NCBI GenBank assembly: GCA_024275825.1
Contig: JAJRYK010000030.1
Span: 1 to 64,000, forward strand
DNA length: 64,000 nt
DNA from: Alphaproteobacteria bacterium
GTDB taxonomy: Bacteria; Pseudomonadota; Alphaproteobacteria; Micavibrionales; Micavibrionaceae
Reading direction: 5' to 3'
Notes under the pieces: model-generated
Databases searched by the model: none
What the model saw: only the letters and a program-made list of their open reading frames with translations
Told to the model about the DNA's origin: nothing
Made by a program: the position numbers and the translations under genes
In this document: in pieces, positions 3,203 to 54,435 of the stretch
Layout of the letters: each line of letters starts with the position of its first letter
Position numbering within the stretch: the stretch's first letter is position 1

Positions 3203-3228
3203 TATTTCAATAGCCTTTTTTGTTTTTT

Positions 3229-3336
3229 ACCACAGAGGTTAAAGAGTTTTAGAAGAGTTCACGGCGTTTTTTATTTTATTTTTTTAATAAAGAAAAACTC
3301 TTTAACCTCTTTTTGTTTCTCTGTGTACTCTGTGGT
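3229..3336. repeat. long imperfect palindrome, class 1, in the gatB leader
   Basis: The left arm starts ACCACAGAGGTTAAAGAG and the right arm ends CTCTGTGTACTCTGTGGT; the reverse complement of the right arm begins ACCACAGAGTACACAGAG and also contains AGAGGTTAAAGAGTTTT. The arms are made of short CACAGAG/TTAAAGAG words at 8-9 nt spacing. The element ends 26 nt before the gatB start. The copy before fabI (30782-30915) has nearly the same words. Confidence 0.85.
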
Positions 3337-3362
3337 ATTACCTTTTTAATCTTTTTATTTCA

Positions 3363-3443
3363 AACCACTAAGACACTAAGGCTCACTAAGAAGTATTTAG
3401 GTGTTGTTTTAAAAACTTAGTGAATCTTAGTGTCTTAGTGGTT
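3363..3443. repeat. long near-perfect palindrome, class 1, after gatA
   Basis: The 28-nt arms at 3363-3390 and 3416-3443 match at 26 positions. Each arm is AACCACTAAGACACTAAG followed by a degenerate third CACTAAG word. It begins 6 nt past the gatA stop codon and lies in tandem with the palindrome at 3229-3336. A solitary arm of the same sequence lies upstream of prfC (16141-16168). Confidence 0.9.
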
Positions 3444-3449
3444 GAAATT

Positions 3450-4925
3450 TTAAATACCCTTAGGCACAGCCTTAAAATCTACCGCATTTTCAATTACGCC
3501 GCCAACTCTCAGCACTGTTTCTTCGTCCCAAGCCTTGCCGATAATTTGCAAGCCAAGCGGCAGGCCTTGCGAGTCCAGTCCGCCCGGAACGGAAATTGCG
3601 GGCAGGCCTGCTAAATTGGCCGTTACCGTGAAGATGTCATTCAAATACATCTTAATCGGATCATCCTCGTTCTCGCCAATGGCGAAGGCGGCAGATGGCG
3701 CGGTGGGCGTTAAAATCGTATCGCACACCTCAAACGCTTTCTCAAAATCTTCAAGGATCAGGCGGCGCACGCGCTGGGCTTTGCGGTAATAGGCATCATA
3801 ATAGCCTGCAGAAAGCACATAGGTGCCGATCATAATCCGGCGCTTAACCTCTTCACCAAAGCCTTGGCTCCTAGTTTTGAAATACATCTCTTCGAGCGTT
3901 TGGCCATCGCCATTAACGCGTAGGCCATAGCGCACGCCATCATAGCGCGCGAGGTTGGAGGACGCCTCGGCCGGTGCAATCACATAGTAAACGGGCAGGG
4001 CGTACTGTGTATGTGGCAAAGAGATATCGACGGGTTCTGCGCCCGCGTCCTTGAGCCAGGAAATGCCCTGTTCCCACAGTTTTTCAATCTCGGTCGGCAT
4101 ACCATCCATGCGGAATTCTTTGGGAATGCCGATTTTCATGCCCTTGATGTCGCCTGTGAGCGCCGCGGCGAAATTCGGCACAGCGATGTTGGCCGATGTC
4201 GCATCCTTCGGATCATGGCCCGACATCGCTTCGAGCATTAATGCACAATCCTTAACTGTACGCGCAAATGGCCCCGGATGATCGAGCGAAGAGGCAAAGG
4301 CCACAACGCCCCAACGCGAGCAGCGCCCATAGGTTGGCTTCATGCCCACAATGCCGGTAAAGGCCGCGGGCTGGCGAATTGATCCGCCGGTATCTGTCCC
4401 GGTTGCGCCCATGGCCATGCGCGCGGCAACGGCGGCCGATGATCCGCCGGACGAGCCGCCGGGCACCAGATCCGCATCATCATTCTGGCGCTTCCACGGG
4501 TTAATCACATTGCCGAAATGGCTGGTCGTGTTGGATGAGCCCATAGCGAATTCATCAAGATTGGTCTTGCCCAGAGAAATCGTCCCCGCATCTTTCAGCT
4601 TTTGGCTAACCGTTGATTCATAGGGCGGGACAAAGCCCTCAAGAATATGGCTCCCCGCCGTGGTCTGCACGCCTTCGGTACAAAACAGATCCTTCATGGC
4701 AATGGGAATGCCCTCCAGCGCCCCTGCGGTGCCATTGGCGCGGCGCTTGTCAGAGGTCGCCGCCTGCTCCAGCGCAGCCTCCGGCGTTTCGGTGATAAAC
4801 GCATTCAGCCCCTTGGCCTTACCCATCGCATCAATATGCGCTTGCGTTAGCTCAACCGCGCTGAAGTCTTTACTCTCAAGGCCCTTGAGGGCTTCGGTGA
4901 TTGTGAGGTTGGTGAGATTAGTCAT
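3450..4925 (-). CDS. gatA: Asp-tRNA(Asn)/Glu-tRNA(Gln) amidotransferase subunit A
   Basis: GatA is the amidase-signature subunit that hydrolyses glutamine and channels ammonia to GatB. The Ser-cisSer-Lys triad is visible: AMKDLF (Lys near residue 77), [13 protein letters not shown], and [13 protein letters not shown]. The length of 491 residues is typical. The start ATG overlaps the stop of the upstream small gene (ATGA), so translation is probably coupled. The C-terminus ends cleanly at FKAVPKGI just before the palindrome at 3443. Confidence 0.97.
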
Positions 4926-5463: not shown

Positions 5464-5494
5464 TTTTAACCGCTGAGGCGCAAAGACGCAAAGG
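5464..5494. repeat. solitary class 1 arm upstream of gatC
   Basis: AACCGCTGAGGCGCAAAG followed by ACGCAAAGG has the word structure of the class 1 palindromes, but no complementary arm is nearby. It lies 28 nt from the gatC start and next to the full palindrome at 5502-5566. Confidence 0.6.
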
Positions 5495-5501
5495 AAATTT
5501 A

Positions 5502-5566
5502 AACGCGAAGGGGTGAAGAAACAAAGAAAAAAATAATAAAACTTCGAATCTTCGTCACTTCGCGTT
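5502..5566. repeat. imperfect palindrome, class 1, upstream of ruvX
   Basis: The left arm begins AACGCGAAGGGGTGAAG and the right arm is CTTCGAATCTTCGTCACTTC followed by GCGTT. The reverse complement of the right arm, AACGCGAAGTGACGAAG, matches the left arm over about 25 nt with a few mismatches. The ruvX ATG follows 12 nt later with no convincing Shine-Dalgarno between. Confidence 0.8.
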
Positions 5567-5577
5567 AAAAAACAAGA

Positions 5578-16140: not shown

Positions 16141-16168
16141 CTTAGTGACCCTTAGTGTCTTAGTGGTT
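16141..16168. repeat. solitary class 1 arm upstream of prfC
   Basis: The reverse complement is AACCACTAAGACACTAAG followed by GGTCACTAAG, which differs from the gatA-gatB palindrome arms (3363-3443) at only one or two of 28 positions. No complementary arm lies upstream. It ends 11 nt before the prfC ATG, in the place where a Shine-Dalgarno would be expected. Confidence 0.8.
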
Positions 16169-20030: not shown

Positions 20031-20057
20031 AACCACCAAGACACGAAGACACCAAGT
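20031..20057. repeat. solitary class 1 arm after sufB
   Basis: AACCACCAAGACACGAAG followed by ACACCAAG has the class 1 word pattern. No complementary arm is seen; a block of class 3 hairpins follows instead. Confidence 0.65.
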
Positions 20058-20071
20058 TACTCAGCCCACCT

Positions 20072-20211
20072 TGTCATCCCGAGCGAAGCCGAGGGATCTG
20101 ATCAAGAGACGACAGGGGGCGGCCCATCCATTTCCGTCATTCCGGCGAAGGCCGGAATCCATAACCTTGTATCAACTATGCATGGATCCCGGATCAAGTC
20201 CGGGATGACGG
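20072..20211. repeat. class 3 hairpin cluster between sufB and the orphan gene
   Basis: The first unit is GTCATCCCGAGCGAAGCCGA plus GGGATC (20072-20098). The second, 20134-20211, opens CCGTCATTCCGGCGAAGG with hairpin TTCCGG/CCGGAA, has outer ATCCAT/ATGGAT pairs, and closes TCCCGGATCAAGTCCGGGA plus TGACGG. It is transcribed within the suf operon if that is a single unit. Confidence 0.8.
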
Positions 20212-20239
20212 GGTTTTATGTGGAGAGGAGTGTTGGGTG

Positions 20240-20779
20240 ATGATTACAAGCAAGCAAGCTTTTTATACATTGGATGAAACTTTTCGAAGGAAATCACTTA
20301 TCCACCCATCCCTTGGGCCTTGTTGGAGGCAGGCGGATGTTCTCGATGTTCTTGACCACTGCTTGTCCAAGAACCTTCTTGTAGAAAGTGCTGAAGTGTT
20401 TTTGATACAGGAGAAGCCACTTGATCCTGAATATATTCCGTTTTCACCGCATTTTTCACCTTTTTATGGAAGTGCAGAAAAGGGTGGTGAAGAACATCAA
20501 GAAATTTTCATTGAGCAAAGTTATGTGTATTCTCTTATTCCTAATAAAAACGGAGAGTTAATTCTGTACGTTGTAGATTTAGAAGATGAAGGCGTAGATT
20601 TAAATAATGGCTCCTGGACAGACTTATGTTTGAGTTCTTCTGATGTGATGAAAACCAAGGTTAAGGATAGTCATGAGGCATTTTTCGATGATATTGAAAA
20701 CCATCTATTAGATGATTTTTATTGGACATTTTTATTGGTATGTAAAAAAGAGTGGGAAAATCCTGATGATCAAAATTAA
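20240..20779 (+). CDS. orphan protein inserted between sufB and sufC
   Basis: The product of about 179 residues is acidic and soluble, with phrases such as IPFSPHFSPFYGSAEKGGEE and LYVVDLEDEGVDLNNGSW. It resembles no Suf protein or other family I know. Its codon use is visibly AT-richer than sufB or sufC. The stop lies 14 nt inside sufC, so the sufC ribosome-binding region is within this gene. The ATG at 20240 is chosen over an adjacent GTG at 20237. It looks like an acquired gene fixed inside the operon; no role in Fe-S assembly is implied by sequence. Confidence 0.7.
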   Translation: MITSKQAFYTLDETFRRKSLIHPSLGPCWRQADVLDVLDHCLSKNLLVESAEVFLIQEKPLDPEYIPFSPHFSPFYGSAEKGGEEHQEIFIEQSYVYSLIPNKNGELILYVVDLEDEGVDLNNGSWTDLCLSSSDVMKTKVKDSHEAFFDDIENHLLDDFYWTFLLVCKKEWENPDDQN

Positions 20780-21527
20780 AGACTTAAAAGCCAGCGTCGA
20801 AACCGATGACGGCGCTGTGGAAATCTTGAAGGGCATATCGCTCGATATCCCGGCGGGCGAAGTCCATGCGATTATGGGGCCGAACGGATCGGGGAAATCG
20901 ACGCTTTCATATGTGCTGGCGGGGCGTGATGAGTATGAGGTTACCGGCGGATCGGTTACGCTGGATGGCGAGGATTTGCTGGAGCTGGCGCCCGAAGAAC
21001 GCGCGGCGGCGGGGATGTTTTTGGCGTTTCAATATCCTGTGGAAATCCCTGGGGTTAATATGAGTATGTTTCTGAAAACCTCAATTAATTCAATCCGTAA
21101 GCAGCGCGGAGAGGAAGAGCTTAATGCGCTTTCTATGCTGAAACTGATGAAAACCAAATGCAGAGAGCTGGGCATTTCTGACGATATGATGAAGCGCGCG
21201 GTCAATGTTGGTTTTTCCGGCGGAGAGAAAAAGCGCAATGAAGTGCTGCAAATGGCGATGCTGGACCCGAAATTCTGCGTGCTGGATGAGACCGATAGCG
21301 GGCTGGATATTGATGCGCTGAAAATTGTCGCGAGCGGCGTGAATGCGATGCGCAGCCCGGATAAATCCTTTCTGATTATCACGCATTATCAGCGCTTGCT
21401 GGATTATATAAAGCCCGATGTGGTGCATATTTTAGCGGATGGTAAGATCATCAAAACCGGCGGGCCGGAGCTAGCGCAAGAGCTGGAAGATAAGGGATAC
21501 GCTGAATTTGTGGGTGAGGCGGCTTAA
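20766..21527 (+). CDS. sufC: Fe-S cluster assembly ATPase SufC
   Basis: SufC is the ABC-type ATPase of the SufBC2D complex. The Walker A is GPNGSGKSTL, the signature is VGFSGGEKKRNEVLQM (SufC-specific), the Walker B is FCVLDETDSGLD, and the H-loop is IITHYQRLLDYI. The natural start is the ATG at 20766 (MIKIKDLKASVE); the longer upstream extension in the same frame lies within the orphan gene and does not resemble SufC. The product is 253 residues. Confidence 0.97.
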   Translation: MIKIKDLKASVETDDGAVEILKGISLDIPAGEVHAIMGPNGSGKSTLSYVLAGRDEYEVTGGSVTLDGEDLLELAPEERAAAGMFLAFQYPVEIPGVNMSMFLKTSINSIRKQRGEEELNALSMLKLMKTKCRELGISDDMMKRAVNVGFSGGEKKRNEVLQMAMLDPKFCVLDETDSGLDIDALKIVASGVNAMRSPDKSFLIITHYQRLLDYIKPDVVHILADGKIIKTGGPELAQELEDKGYAEFVGEAA

Positions 21528-21535
21528 GAAGGGTT

Positions 21536-21622
21536 ACCACAAAGGCTCAAAGGACACTAAGAATCACAAAGAAAAAAATAAAAATACTTTGTGATTCTTT
21601 GAGGGCTTTGAGTCTTTGTGGT
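21536..21622. repeat. long palindrome, class 1, sufC-sufD gap
   Basis: The left arm ACCACAAAGGCTCAAAGG plus ACACTAAGAATCACAAAG pairs with the right arm CTTTGTGATTCTTTGAGG plus GCTTTGAGTCTTTGTGGT over about 36 nt. It is nearly the same sequence as the palindrome at 22591-22683, so the two copies flank sufD. The sufD ATG is 20 nt past the right arm, with AAAAAAGG as Shine-Dalgarno. Confidence 0.9.
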
Positions 21623-21641
21623 GAAATAAAAAAGGTTAAAA

Positions 21642-22640
21642 ATGAAAGCACTAAAGTTAGACAATTTACCAACGCCCAAGGTTGAGGAATGGAAATATAC
21701 CAACCTTCCGCGCGCGATTTCGGCTGATCTGGTGGATGCGCCGGTGCAGGAAATTACTATCCACAAAACCCGTGGACAAATTTGTGGACAGGCTGAGGAT
21801 ATTTTATTTACCGGTGAGGCCGGAGCGCTTCACTCGCTGCGGCTGAAGATTATTTTGGAGGAAGGCGCGCAGCTGACAGTGCTGGAGCGCCATGACGGTA
21901 GCGGCGCGTATTGGAAGAATATGGTCACCGAGATTGAGGTCGGCGCGCATGCGCGGCTCAATCACATTCGTTTGGTCGAGGATAGCGGGGAGGGTGTGAA
22001 TACCAATATGGTGCATATCACGCAAGGGGCGGACTCGCTCTATAATGGCTTTACGCTCAATATTGGCGGCAAATTAACGCGCCACGAAATTCATGCGGAA
22101 ATTCAGGGGCAAAATGCGGAGCTGCATTTGAATGGCTTGAATTTGTTGGCGGGGCAGCAGCATGGCGATACAACAATCTTGATCGAGCATCAAGCGCCGC
22201 ATTCTCAATCAAACCAATTCTATCGCTCGCTGCTGGATGATAATGCACGCGGGGTTTTTCAGGGTAAAGTGCACGTACATCAGATAGCGCAGAAAACCGA
22301 TGCGTATCAGCTTTCGAACGCGATCTTGCTTTCGCAAGGGGCGGAGATGGATACGAAGCCGGAGCTGGAAATTTACGCTGATGATGTAAAATGTTCGCAT
22401 GGCGCGACGACGGGGCAACTGGACGAAGAGCCTTTGTTTTACTTGCGTTCGCGGGGCTTAAGCGAGAAGGCAGCGCGCCAGCTCTTGATCGAAGCCTTTG
22501 TGGATGACGTTGTGGAAAAGATTGGGGATGAAGAGCTTGAGGCAAGAGTGAGTAAGATGTGTAGGCAATGGTTAGGGGGAGTTTTAAGTATTCACCACAA
22601 AGGCTCAAAGGATACAAAGTTTCTCAAAGAAAATAAATAA
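21642..22640 (+). CDS. sufD: Fe-S cluster assembly protein SufD, with a repeat-encoded tail
   Basis: SufD pairs with SufB in the scaffold. The N-terminus has VEEWKYTNLPRAI, and the core has ILLSQGAEMDTKPELEIYAD, DVKCSHGATTGQLDEEPLFY and LRSRGLSEKAARQLLIEAF, all family signatures including the functionally important Cys/His region. The length is 332 residues. The last 16 residues (IHHKGSKDTKFLKENK) are encoded by the left arm of the class 1 palindrome that starts at 22591, so the natural end was probably near RQWLGG and the repeat supplied a new stop codon. Confidence 0.95.
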   Translation: MKALKLDNLPTPKVEEWKYTNLPRAISADLVDAPVQEITIHKTRGQICGQAEDILFTGEAGALHSLRLKIILEEGAQLTVLERHDGSGAYWKNMVTEIEVGAHARLNHIRLVEDSGEGVNTNMVHITQGADSLYNGFTLNIGGKLTRHEIHAEIQGQNAELHLNGLNLLAGQQHGDTTILIEHQAPHSQSNQFYRSLLDDNARGVFQGKVHVHQIAQKTDAYQLSNAILLSQGAEMDTKPELEIYADDVKCSHGATTGQLDEEPLFYLRSRGLSEKAARQLLIEAFVDDVVEKIGDEELEARVSKMCRQWLGGVLSIHHKGSKDTKFLKENK

Positions 22641-22683
22641 AATACTTTGTGATTCTTTGAGGCCTTAGAGCCTTTGTGGTGAA
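22591..22683. repeat. long palindrome, class 1, overlapping the sufD 3' end
   Basis: TTCACCACAAAGGCTCAAAG (22591-22610) and its partner ending CCTTTGTGGTGAA (22683) form arms of about 39 nt with scattered mismatches. The left arm and loop up to 22640 are translated as the last 16 residues and stop of sufD. The sufS ATG is at 22692, only 8 nt past the element, without a clear Shine-Dalgarno. Confidence 0.9.
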
Positions 22684-22691
22684 AAAATAGA

Positions 22692-23933
22692 ATGTTAATG
22701 ATGGAAAATAAAACAGATATATCGTACTGCCGCAAAGACTTCTCGATTTTGCAAACGCAGATGAATGGGAAGCGTTTGGCGTTTTTGGATAGTGCGGCCA
22801 GTGCGCAGAAGCCGGCCTGCGTACTGGCGGCGATGAATGAGGTTTATGAGAGTGGATATGCGAATATTCACAGGGGGCTATACGGACTTTCTCAGAATTT
22901 GACGCAAGCGTACGAGGGCGTACGCTCTAGGGTTGCCAGTTTCATCAATGCCCAGTCGGAGCGCAATATTGTCTTCACACGCAACGCGACGGAGGCGATT
23001 AATCTGGTCGCGCAGAGTTGGGGACGTACGTTTTTATCGGAGGGTGATGAGGTTATTTTGACCGAGATGGAGCATCACGCGAATATTGTGCCGTGGCAAT
23101 TACTGCGTGATCAGATTGGTATCGTTATAAAAACGGTTCCGGTTGATGAAACTGGCGCGCTGGACCTTGTGGCGTTTGATCAATTATTTACCCATAAGAC
23201 GAAATTGGCCGCTTTTACCCATGTATCTAATGCGCTGGGGATCATCAATCCAGTTAAGCAAATGGTTGAAATGGCTAAAGATTTCTATCCTGAGATGGCT
23301 GTGCTTGTGGATGGATCGCAGGGCATTGTGCATGGATCTGTGGATATCCAGAGTATAGGTGCAGATTTCTATGTGTTTACAGGGCACAAGCTCTATGGCC
23401 CGACTGGGATTGGGGTTTTGTATGGTAAGGCAGAGCTTTTGAACGATATGCCGCCCTATCAGGGGGGCGGCGATATGATTGAGACGGTCAGTTTTGATCG
23501 CACAGTGTATAAAAATGCGCCTTATCGGTTTGAGGCTGGCACGCCGCCGATTGTTGAGGTGATCGGGCTGGGCGCGGCTGTGGACTACCTTGTGGATATC
23601 GGGATGGATAACATTGCAGCGCATGAGGCGGCATTGCTTGAATACGCCACCGCGCAGCTGTTGGAGATTGATGGGCTAAGCTTGCACGGCACGGCGGCGG
23701 AGAAAGTCGGGATTATAAGCTTTACGATGGACGGCGCGCATCCCAGCGATATTGGGATGGTGCTGGACCAAATGGGCGTGGCGGTGCGTACGGGGCATCA
23801 TTGCTGTATGCCGCTGATGGAGGCGATGGGTGTGGATTCAACGGCGCGCGCGTCGTTGGGCTTGTATAGTAACCGTGATGATATAGATCAATTGATAGAG
23901 GGGCTTCACAAGGTGAAGTCGATGTTTTCATGA
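22692..23933 (+). CDS. sufS: cysteine desulfurase SufS (group II)
   Basis: SufS is the PLP enzyme that removes sulfur from cysteine for cluster assembly. The family start YCRKDFSILQTQMNGKRLAF then LDSAASAQKPACVLAAM, the DEVILTEMEHHANIVPWQ and the PLP lysine motif FTGHKLYGPTGIGVLYG are present. The catalytic Cys lies in VRTGHHCCMPLMEAMG near residue 365. The 413-residue length is standard for SufS. The stop overlaps the following sufT start by 4 nt. Confidence 0.97.
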   Translation: MLMMENKTDISYCRKDFSILQTQMNGKRLAFLDSAASAQKPACVLAAMNEVYESGYANIHRGLYGLSQNLTQAYEGVRSRVASFINAQSERNIVFTRNATEAINLVAQSWGRTFLSEGDEVILTEMEHHANIVPWQLLRDQIGIVIKTVPVDETGALDLVAFDQLFTHKTKLAAFTHVSNALGIINPVKQMVEMAKDFYPEMAVLVDGSQGIVHGSVDIQSIGADFYVFTGHKLYGPTGIGVLYGKAELLNDMPPYQGGGDMIETVSFDRTVYKNAPYRFEAGTPPIVEVIGLGAAVDYLVDIGMDNIAAHEAALLEYATAQLLEIDGLSLHGTAAEKVGIISFTMDGAHPSDIGMVLDQMGVAVRTGHHCCMPLMEAMGVDSTARASLGLYSNRDDIDQLIEGLHKVKSMFS

Positions 23934-30774: not shown

Positions 30775-30781
30775 TTTTTAA

Positions 30782-30915
30782 TACCACAGAGGTTAAAGAG
30801 AAAAAGAAGAGTTTACAGAGGTTTATTATTAGATGTTTTACATAGTGCGAAGCTTGAGGTAAAAGAACGAAAAAACTCTTTAATCTCTTTTTTAAACTCT
30901 GTGTTCTCTGTGGTA
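30782..30915. repeat. long imperfect palindrome, class 1, in the fabI leader
   Basis: TACCACAGAGGTTAAAGAG at the left pairs with CTCTGTGTTCTCTGTGGTA at the right; inner words GAAGAG/TTAAAGAG and CTCTTTAATCTC continue the arms with a loop of about 40 nt. It shares its words with the gatB-leader element (3229-3336). The fabI ATG is 19 nt downstream. Confidence 0.85.
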
Positions 30916-30934
30916 AAAAAAGAAATGGAAAACA

Positions 30935-37173: not shown

Positions 37174-37266
37174 TTTTAACACGAAGCTCGAAAAGTTAAA
37201 AAGAACATGAAGAAAATAATAATAAAACTTCGTGAACTTATAATCTTCACTTACTTCGTGTTAAAA
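37174..37266. repeat. long imperfect palindrome, class 1, gpmA-dapD gap
   Basis: The arms are TTTTAACACGAAGCTCG plus AAAAGTTAAAAAGAACATG and the complementary CTTCGTGAACTTATAATC plus TTCACTTACTTCGTGTTAAA A. It starts 4 nt past the gpmA stop. The dapD ATG is 49 nt past the element with AAGGA as Shine-Dalgarno. The right arm matches the half-arm before fabB. Confidence 0.85.
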
Positions 37267-38521: not shown

Positions 38522-38523
38522 GG

Positions 38524-38643
38524 TTTAAGGGGTTCACGCAAAGAACGCTAAGACTTCCGCAAAGGCCGCAAAGTTTTTAAATTAAAAATCTTTTGCGGCT
38601 TTTGCGCCTTTAACCTTCGCGTTCTTTGCGCGAACCCCTTAAA
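38524..38643. repeat. long palindrome, class 1, downstream of dapD
   Basis: TTTAAGGGGTTCACGCAAAG plus AACGCTAAG at the left matches the reverse complement of the right arm, TTTAAGGGGTTCGCGCAAAG plus AACGCGAAG. Inner words CCGCAAAGGCCGCAAAG pair with CTTTTGCGGCTTTTGCG. It directly follows the dapD stop and is the one full copy lying 3' of two convergent genes, not in a leader. Confidence 0.9.
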
Positions 38644-38646
38644 CAA

Positions 38647-52258: not shown

Positions 52259-53002
52259 TTATAGGTGGAGCGTTTTTGGCTCAGTAGTCGGCGATATGGG
52301 GAGCGGAGCCTGGCTCTCAAACTCCACAATAAACTCATGGATTAGTCTGGATATTTCATATGTTTGTTCTTTCTGGGACAAAATCAAGAGTGCTTTAAAA
52401 CTCTCGACTGAGCCATTAAAATAATCCCAAAATTCGTCTAGTGCTGTTTGGCATGTTTCAAAATCTTTTGATAATATTGAGCGCGCGACCATGGCTTCAA
52501 CAATGTTTTCGATGTCGTTCCATTCTGCTTCTTTTCTTGCTCCCAAGTGCATAAGGTTGGCAATAAACCAAGCAACAGGGTGTTTGTCGAGGGAGTTAAG
52601 CCAGCGATTAAAGTATGTTTGAGCCTCATCAGTTCTAAGTATAACAGGAAAGGAAACTCCTCCGGCGCGTTCAATGGAATCTATAAGGCTCAAAGCCTTA
52701 TTTTCGGTTGCCCAATCTACAATACGTCGCCCGTTTGGCGCCGGTAGGTTTGGGATGCTGATTTTACCTTCATATTTAATATTGAGGTTTGTAAAAACAT
52801 TTGCGGCATCATGCCTGACCAGTGCATCGCATATTTCACAAAGAATTCCGTGTGTCTTTGCATCTGGGTCAAAAACTCTGTTATCTTCTTTTTCTTCAAG
52901 AGATAGCTCTTTATGGATTTGTTGGATGAGGCCAGAGAGCCAGCTTGTATCTTCAAGCTTTACCGCACGATCAATATTCTCTTTTTGTTTTTCATTTAGC
53001 AT
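52259..53002 (-). CDS. orphan 247-residue protein between phoH and miaB
   Basis: The product is soluble, rich in Trp, Leu and Asn, with helical character throughout (e.g. WNDIENIVEAMVARSILSKD and LILSQKEQTYEISRLIHEFI). A DIAVDWATEN-like segment, RRIVDWATENKALSLIDSIE, is near residue 94. I recognise no family. It is visibly AT-richer than phoH and miaB and interrupts a gene order that is otherwise contiguous in many Alphaproteobacteria. The gene has an AGAAGG sequence about 12 nt upstream of the ATG. Confidence 0.7.
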   Translation of the reverse strand: MLNEKQKENIDRAVKLEDTSWLSGLIQQIHKELSLEEKEDNRVFDPDAKTHGILCEICDALVRHDAANVFTNLNIKYEGKISIPNLPAPNGRRIVDWATENKALSLIDSIERAGGVSFPVILRTDEAQTYFNRWLNSLDKHPVAWFIANLMHLGARKEAEWNDIENIVEAMVARSILSKDFETCQTALDEFWDYFNGSVESFKALLILSQKEQTYEISRLIHEFIVEFESQAPLPISPTTEPKTLHL

Positions 53003-53070
53003 TTTTTATTAGCACCTTCTAATCTGATGAAGGAAGCTACTACCTTATGAAAACTTTGGCAAGGAAAACT

Positions 53071-54435
53071 TTATATTCTTAAAATACTTTCGTTAGTCAC
53101 GATCTCACCCGTCAGCGAGTTATCAAACCCTTCGGTGATCTTAATATCCTGAATTGTGTTCATCAGGCGCGGATTGCCCTCGATATACACTGATTGGTTA
53201 AACGGGCTGCGGCCTACTAATTGTCCTTCGCGTTTGCCTTTGCGGTCGAACAGGACGGGCAGGGTTTGGCCGATGGTGCTTTCGTTAAAGCTGCGCTGCT
53301 GCTCGTTTATCAGGGCTTGCAGGCGGGCTAAACGCTCGGAGGCGATTTTATCGTGGATCAAACCCTGCATATTGGCCGCGGGTGTGCCGGGCCGGGCGGA
53401 GTATTTGAAGGAATAGCATGATGCGAAATTCACGTCGCGCACCAGCTGCATTGTGTCCTCAAAGTCTTGATCGCTCTCCCCCGGAAAGCCGACAATGAAG
53501 TCGGAGGAAAAGGCGAGGTCCGGGCGCGCTTTGCGCAGCTTTTCAATGATATCGCGGAAGTGATTGCTCGTATGTTTGCGGTTCATCGCCTCCAGAATTT
53601 TGTCAGATCCACTTTGCACCGGCAGATGCAGGAACGGCATAAGCTTCGGCAGAGCGTGCATTTCAATCAGCGCCTCATCCATATCGCGCGGGTGTGATGT
53701 GGTGTAGCGAATGCGGGCGAGGCTTTCAATCTTTGCCACTTCCTCAATCAGCTTCCCCAGCCCCCAAACATTGCCGTCTGGTCCCTCACCATGAAACGCA
53801 TTGACGTTTTGGCCTAGCAGGGTGATTTCCAGCGTGCCATTATCGACCAGCTTTTTACACTCATCGACAATCTTTTGCACGGGCCGGGAATATTCGCTGC
53901 CGCGCGTATAGGGCACAACGCAGAAGGTGCAGAATTTATCGCAGCCTTCCTGAATAGACACAAAGGCCGAAACGCCCTGTGATGTGTGTTCCTCGGGCAG
54001 GGAGTCAAACTTGCTCTGTGCCGGGAATTCGGTGTTAACCACGCGCTCACCGCTGGCCTTGATGATCATTTCCGGTAGCTCGTGATAGGTTTGCGGACCG
54101 AAAACCATATCAACATAGGGCGCGCGTTCGAGGATAAATTCACCCTCAGCCTGCGCAACGCAGCCCGCCACAGCCATGAGCATTTTCTCGCCCTTGGCCT
54201 CTTTAGCCTCTTTCAGGGGGCGCAAGCGGCCGAGGTCGGAGAAAACTTTATCGGTGGCTTTTTCACGAATGTGGCAGGTATTCAGGATCACCATATCGGC
54301 GTCCTCCGGGCTGTCCACGGCCTTATAGCCCTGCGCGCTGAGGATATCAGCCATGCGGTGGCTGTCATAGACATTCATTTGGCAGCCCCAGGTCTTTATA
54401 TAGAGCTTCTTATTCTTATTTGCGCTTTGTGTCAT
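53071..54435 (-). CDS. miaB: tRNA-2-methylthio-N6-dimethylallyladenosine synthase
   Basis: MiaB is a radical-SAM enzyme that methylthiolates A37. The N-terminal domain has cysteines for one cluster (KTWGCQMNVYDSHRMADIL, LNTCHIREKA and AGCVAQAEG), the radical-SAM CxxxCxxC is EGCDKFCTFCVVPYTRGSE, and a TRAM domain closes the protein. The product is 454 residues from the ATG at 54435; an alternative ATG is 12 nt upstream, but AAGGATGTACAAGAAT favours 54435. It begins the minus-strand block that runs to rpsO. Confidence 0.96.
   Translation of the reverse strand: MTQSANKNKKLYIKTWGCQMNVYDSHRMADILSAQGYKAVDSPEDADMVILNTCHIREKATDKVFSDLGRLRPLKEAKEAKGEKMLMAVAGCVAQAEGEFILERAPYVDMVFGPQTYHELPEMIIKASGERVVNTEFPAQSKFDSLPEEHTSQGVSAFVSIQEGCDKFCTFCVVPYTRGSEYSRPVQKIVDECKKLVDNGTLEITLLGQNVNAFHGEGPDGNVWGLGKLIEEVAKIESLARIRYTTSHPRDMDEALIEMHALPKLMPFLHLPVQSGSDKILEAMNRKHTSNHFRDIIEKLRKARPDLAFSSDFIVGFPGESDQDFEDTMQLVRDVNFASCYSFKYSARPGTPAANMQGLIHDKIASERLARLQALINEQQRSFNESTIGQTLPVLFDRKGKREGQLVGRSPFNQSVYIEGNPRLMNTIQDIKITEGFDNSLTGEIVTNESILRI

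Follow-up and report, generated by a model that had tools for sequence, protein, structure and literature searches.

Gene-less CACAAAG-type palindromes at the suf operon junctions of a Micavibrionaceae bacterium and their association with GxxExxY genes

Introduction

REPIN-RAYT systems consist of hairpin-forming, non-autonomous repeats together with a cognate enzyme gene that has these repeats on either side, every enzyme copy being distinct (PMC3116915), and REP sequences are defined by a GTAG (or CGTC) tag and a short stem (PMC3733652). MITEs are short, gene-less elements with terminal inverted repeats, present in many copies and having a related, longer element that bears a gene (PMC10969869). 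Rickettsia palindromic elements (RPE; Ogata, 2000) measure about 100–150 bp and are reported to lie in-frame within protein genes, with which they are translated (PMC2229807, PMC10969869). The intervening sequence (IVS) of 23S rRNA is a selfish element in which an S23 ORF is held in a long-stem hairpin (PMC4990558). Here we describe two palindromes on either side of sufD in an alphaproteobacterium of the Micavibrionaceae; the window is the whole stretch of 64,000 nucleotides that was analysed.

Results

Two palindromes at suf operon junctions

The features of the locus are as follows.

20712..21527, + strand: sufC (ATPase), the upstream neighbour
21536..21622, no strand assigned: gene-less palindromic element 1 of the CACAAAG type, in the sufC–sufD gap; two 36-nt arms, 21536-21571 and 21587-21622
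21642..22640, + strand: sufD, 332 aa (PF01458, E 2e-80), the host-derived part ending near codon 316
22590..22640, + strand: element-encoded SufD tail IHHKGSKDTKFLKENK with stop codon, absent from 29 relatives
22591..22683, no strand assigned: gene-less palindromic element 2, also of the CACAAAG type, where sufD meets sufS; its arms are 22591-22629 and 22645-22683
22692..23933, + strand: sufS (cysteine desulfurase), its start 8 nt 3' of element 2

A sequence-only reading of this DNA had placed near-identical palindromes on both sides of sufD; its coordinates were exact and both of the strings that it quoted are present in each copy. The two elements are 87% identical across 94 nt and have the ends TTCACC...GGTGAA, element 2 being spelled TTCACCAC...GTGGTGAA. 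The arms of element 1 are 86% complementary and enclose a 15-nt loop. As RNA, element 1 folds at -46.0 kcal/mol (z = -10.9) and element 2 at -45.3 kcal/mol (z = -9.6), with 0 shuffles as good in either case, and an Rfam search of the palindromes gave only sub-threshold matches to microRNA precursors, as expected for any long hairpin. No gene runs into element 1, the sufC stop codon (21525-21527) lying 8 nt upstream, and the GGTGA end of element 2 occupies the expected position of the ribosome-binding site of sufS.

Element 2 had also been read as beginning within sufD and providing its last 16 residues and stop codon, which the sequence bears out to the base. The SufD C-terminus reads ...RQWLGGVLS followed by IHHKGSKDTKFLKENK and the stop, and the final 16 codons (22590-22637) with the stop codon are element sequence but for one base, the first in the Ile codon. 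Joining the flanks of element 2, at a presumed exact position, gives an end of ...VLSKIEC and a stop that overlaps the sufS start, which fits an ancestral overlap.

The sufD region in relatives

The sufD gene was located in 56 of 58 genomes and the surrounding region was compared in 29 relatives. SufD had been expected to end normally near the RQWLGG region, and in nearly all of these relatives it does stop 0–7 residues past 'WL', the few exceptions including G021 and G052, in which the end is longer or different. The gap between sufD and sufS is short or negative (overlap) in most relatives with a readable junction. When the SufD C-termini were aligned, as had been proposed, the tail and the CACAAAG-type palindrome were found in 0 of the 29 relatives, the same-genus sister G001 (SufD terminus ...KLWLQNIL) included; a tail common to all relatives, the outcome that had been named as contrary to insertion, was thus not seen among them. 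In a tree of sufC, sufD and sufS the genome of the window (G000) pairs with G001 with a support of 0.972, and since G001 has neither palindrome at its suf junctions, both insertions are younger than the split between the two. The empty sister site and the relatives lacking tail and palindrome support the earlier claim of an insertion at the end of sufD and of past mobility. We hold with high confidence that the sufD palindromes were inserted and that they belong to the heptad family described below. The nearest empty site at sufD–sufS is ~72% identical, too diverged to define the element ends or a target-site duplication.

Palindromes of other types occur at the suf junctions of two relatives, with a CACAGAG-type palindrome in the sufC–sufD gap of G029 and CGCAAAG/CGCGAAG-type palindromes in both the sufC–sufD and sufD–sufS gaps of G036. 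These look like independent insertions because close relatives on the tree are without them, and the same sites would apparently have been entered separately. A seeming fusion of the G036 sufD to an arm (...KTRS) was a frame artefact, the arm starting a few bases after the gene ends in ...WLERVL.

The heptad-arm superfamily

The arms are iterations of the heptad CRCNNAG with spacers of 1–4 nt, and the palindromes of the window fit this definition as inverted CRCNNAG-heptad arms with 1–4 nt spacers. Arms were searched for with sequence patterns and short stretches, by which 22 matches to the CACAAAG-type arm were found in the source genome (0 with the reversed-pattern control), and at least 15 gene-less arms of type (CACAA,1,2) are present there. 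Spellings in the window and genome include CACAAAG, CACTAAG, CACCAAG, CACAGAG and CGCAAAG, among others. Within one copy all heptads of both arms are spelled alike, and the spelling differs between copies.

Other palindromes of the superfamily, whole or half, lie in the window at 3228-3337, 3352-3454, 5469-5570, 16141-16167, 20032-20056, 30776-30921, 37174-37266 and 38523-38644, with heptads CACAGAG, CACTAAG, CGCGAAG, CACCAAG, CACGAAG and CGCAAAG. Directly 3' of sufB and a half heptad palindrome, at 20070-20215, there are REP-like repeats (GTCATCCCGAGCGAAGC..., CCGTCATTCCGGCGAAGGCCGGAATCC) that resemble CGTC-tagged REPs. In the relative G016 (L192-L196) palindromes were observed nested within each other's loops around a core of REP-like repeats. 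In the source genome the end of contig C46 and the start of contig C22 (L206, L207) both terminate in the loop of one palindrome and have inverted sequence in common, which suggests that a larger repeat is inserted in that loop. Dolichospermum and Nostoc (L123, L172) carry a GxxExxY element at the same locus with CGCAGAG heptads in both arms of one and CGCAAAG heptads in both arms of the other, a difference that suggests a concerted change of all heptads.

The outer flanks of elements are more complementary than mismatched flanks (mean score 3.1 v 1.9, p 2e-6). At one carA–carB junction (L252, G144 C19) the palindrome continues beyond its arms and takes in the last part of carA, a possible inverted copy of the host flank. 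An inverted duplication of host flanks, considered from this case, is not claimed, the effect being a few bases and possibly reflecting longer arms instead of host DNA.

GxxExxY genes within full copies

A full element runs from a left CRCNNAG-heptad arm through a GxxExxY (TIGR04256) gene to an inverted right arm. Heptad arms were found at 16 of the 20 GxxExxY genes of the source genome and its relatives. In named genomes, 77 GxxExxY loci were sampled from some archaea and from a wide range of bacterial phyla; an inverted repeat scoring at least 15 is present at 81% of them, a proportion that may not hold for distant members of the family as these loci are the best matches to an alignment from this clade. 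The corresponding values were 2.2% of 405 shifted windows and 14% of 5852 pairings in which arms were swapped between loci, and because the pairing of arms from different loci gives just 14%, the arms are copy-specific.

The GxxExxY alignment has invariant E, D, ExK and Q residues, as in PD-(D/E)XK nucleases, and the profile matches PDDEXK_3 (E about 1e-42). An AlphaFold2 model (pLDDT 95.6) gave SSO0001 (4ic1), which we take to be a Cas4-type nuclease, and lambda exonuclease as the best PDB structure matches, with modest TM-scores of about 0.54; a sequence search of the PDB gave no match. We predict with high confidence that GxxExxY is a small PD-(D/E)XK nuclease. It was not found in phages, and plasmids carrying it amounted to 7 records. 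Mentions of GxxExxY in the papers searched are rare and apparently none concerns function, PF13366 likewise being named there in passing. No paper was found on an association of GxxExxY with palindromes, most subscription papers falling outside the search, so that novelty is unproven.

Genes of other kinds were also seen inside palindromes. At L082:325-952 a GIY-YIG protein (MUG113/T5orf172) is encoded within CGCAGAG arms, and a GxxExxY gene that has the same right arm follows immediately downstream. S23 four-helix-bundle genes of the relatives (TIGR02436, L097-L109) lie between inverted repeats made up of iterations of a short unit such as GTTGCAAG; among 11 full-length copies, 8 score at least 16 and, as far as seen, they lie outside rRNA genes.

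Gene-less and full copies compared

The association of the elements with GxxExxY is quantitative as well as physical. A CACAAAG-type full copy with a GxxExxY gene between its arms is present at C13 (about 52857-53338), and among five full copies the sufD palindrome arms fit this one best, scoring 26–30 of 36 against its better arm vs. at most 14 for the others. On sequence grounds it is most likely the cognate full copy of the sufD palindromes. Across 58 genomes heptad-arm counts rise with GxxExxY gene counts (rho 0.82, p 3e-15; 0.85 within the family), and no such relation was seen with Y1_Tnp (rho 0.17, p 0.19), heptad arms being found at 0 of 8 Y1_Tnp loci. A full copy of the own genome shares heptad and spacing type with 35 of 82 gene-less arms (permuted mean 14.2, rank 2 of 120). 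Protein similarity is correlated with arm similarity over 64 loci (Mantel 0.14, p < 0.001), a value inflated by partly shared descent.

Other operon junctions

In a second genus of the same class, cobJ and cobM of G442 overlap by ATGA (CobJ ending ...GYAGKQT) and the junction is empty. An element occupies this junction in G162, G439, G440 and G433 of the same genus, and the GxxExxY gene inside it was confirmed by profile for G162 and G433. The end of CobJ is encoded by the left arm in G440 and G433, and in G440 it reads ...GEENREERQEGRKGR before the stop. Read from the sequence, the palindrome would be translated along with a host protein both here and in the SufD tail. Full elements are also found at carA–carB and trpE–trpG junctions (these gene names, like cobJ and cobM, were read from sequence) and at the annotated fabD–fabG junction of Sphingomonas parapaucimobilis, that of S. 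paeninsulae being uninterrupted. No empty site within the genus was established for a gene-less copy in G054, as conservation there is limited to one of its flanks.

At 18 of 29 well-defined loci a co-directional upstream stop codon falls between 40 nt upstream and 30 nt downstream of the left-arm start (9 in the opposite-strand control), which is suggestive only of a preference for upstream stop codons.

Discussion

The sufD palindromes are best explained, with good though not full confidence, as MITE-like copies, lacking the gene, of a mobile palindromic element that bears GxxExxY. Such elements would insert where operon genes abut closely or overlap, at a point just past the upstream stop codon or across it. 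In the case of sufD and sufS a coupled stop and start would have been split; sufD translation would run on through 16 codons of the left arm and stop at the TAA within the element, and sufS would retain its own start behind the right arm. The GxxExxY nuclease may act on a hairpin or cruciform into which the arms fold and may spread full and gene-less copies in trans, a role like that proposed for RAYT transposases on REPINs. We put forward this mobilisation in trans tentatively, as a possibility that falls a little short of probable. Somewhat more tentative is the wider proposal that a new class of mobile element owes its spread to GxxExxY proteins. In this class a lone PD-(D/E)XK nuclease without a transposase would recognise its own copy-specific heptad hairpin and carry hairpins, with or without the gene, into operon stop/start junctions, new C-termini of host proteins (SufD, CobJ) being a recurrent outcome. 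To our knowledge, stand-alone PD-(D/E)XK nucleases are not known as transposases, which counts against a mobilising role. It also counts against the favoured explanation that transposition or excision in progress was not seen and that the empty sites yielded no target-site duplication.

The main rival to GxxExxY as mobiliser is that it is a passenger, heptad palindromes being spread by another factor (host replication/repair, or a transposase elsewhere) and small nuclease or S23 genes being cargo captured in the loop. The GIY-YIG protein in CGCAGAG arms and the S23 genes in palindromes of other units are cargo of this kind, and GxxExxY could be the same. Palindromes also nest in one another's loops, and five genomes have several arms with GxxExxY undetected, two of them incomplete assemblies (77%, 88%), which likewise counts against mobilisation by GxxExxY. 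The passenger explanation is nonetheless considered unlikely, as arms accompany GxxExxY genes across phyla and the arm type co-varies with both the protein and the full copy of the own genome.

Improbable to a clearly greater degree is that these are REP/REPIN-type elements moved by a RAYT (HUH, Y1) transposase. The sufD palindromes are indeed multi-copy, palindromic and mostly intergenic, the source genome has one partial Y1_Tnp gene, and the logic of REPINs is similar in that distinct enzyme copies each have their own repeats (PMC3116915). However, arm counts show no relation to Y1_Tnp, the eight Y1_Tnp loci are without heptad arms, and the element ends have no GTAG or CGTC tag, with arms of about 36 bp vs. 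stems of 5–13 bp (PMC3733652). Non-mobile regulatory hairpins (attenuators or mRNA processing sites) that arose in place in the suf operon would suit very stable RNA hairpins at operon junctions, but near-identical copies at unrelated loci, the absence of this palindrome from the same junctions of relatives and the gene held between the arms of full copies refute this as an origin, a later regulatory effect being possible.

On the favoured reading of a GxxExxY-bearing mobile element, a widespread and unstudied nuclease family gains a testable genomic role, its genes being the inside of palindromic elements, and such elements enter coupled operon junctions and rewrite protein ends, in suf of one lineage and in cobJ of another genus. 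Beyond the sequence-only reading, this ties a cross-phylum family to GxxExxY, adds suf junctions entered elsewhere with other heptads, and adds the cobJ–cobM fusion. It also raises the question of how both arms share one heptad spelling per copy yet differ between copies, even at the same locus, as in Dolichospermum versus Nostoc.

Comparison with known systems

As in REPIN-RAYT systems, GxxExxY elements pair gene-less hairpins with an enzyme gene flanked by the same repeats. They differ in that the enzyme is a predicted PD-(D/E)XK nuclease and not an HUH/Y1 transposase, the arms are heptad iterations and not GTAG-tagged REPs, and the GxxExxY gene sits within a split palindrome; the sufD palindromes have neither the tag and short stem of REPs nor an association with Y1/HUH. 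Like an RPE, element 2 is a palindrome inserted in a protein gene and translated, but it replaces the gene end at an operon junction, and the likeness meant here is one of description. We know of no carrier gene for RPEs. With the 23S IVS the full elements share an ORF in a long-stem hairpin placed in a transcribed unit, but the protein and the arms are other ones and the location is outside rRNA genes; the sufD palindromes lie in the suf operon, the source genome gave no TIGR02436 match, and their arm type is that of the GxxExxY-bearing copy at C13. The description of a MITE also fits the sufD palindromes, as they are short (87–93 bp), multi-copy and without transposase coding, and have 36-nt arms as terminal inverted repeats. 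The GxxExxY element departs from MITE systems in being without a classical transposase, and the known empty sites are too diverged for a target-site duplication to be read. The arms of the sufD palindromes are common to the GxxExxY copy at C13, which is a candidate for the autonomous element.
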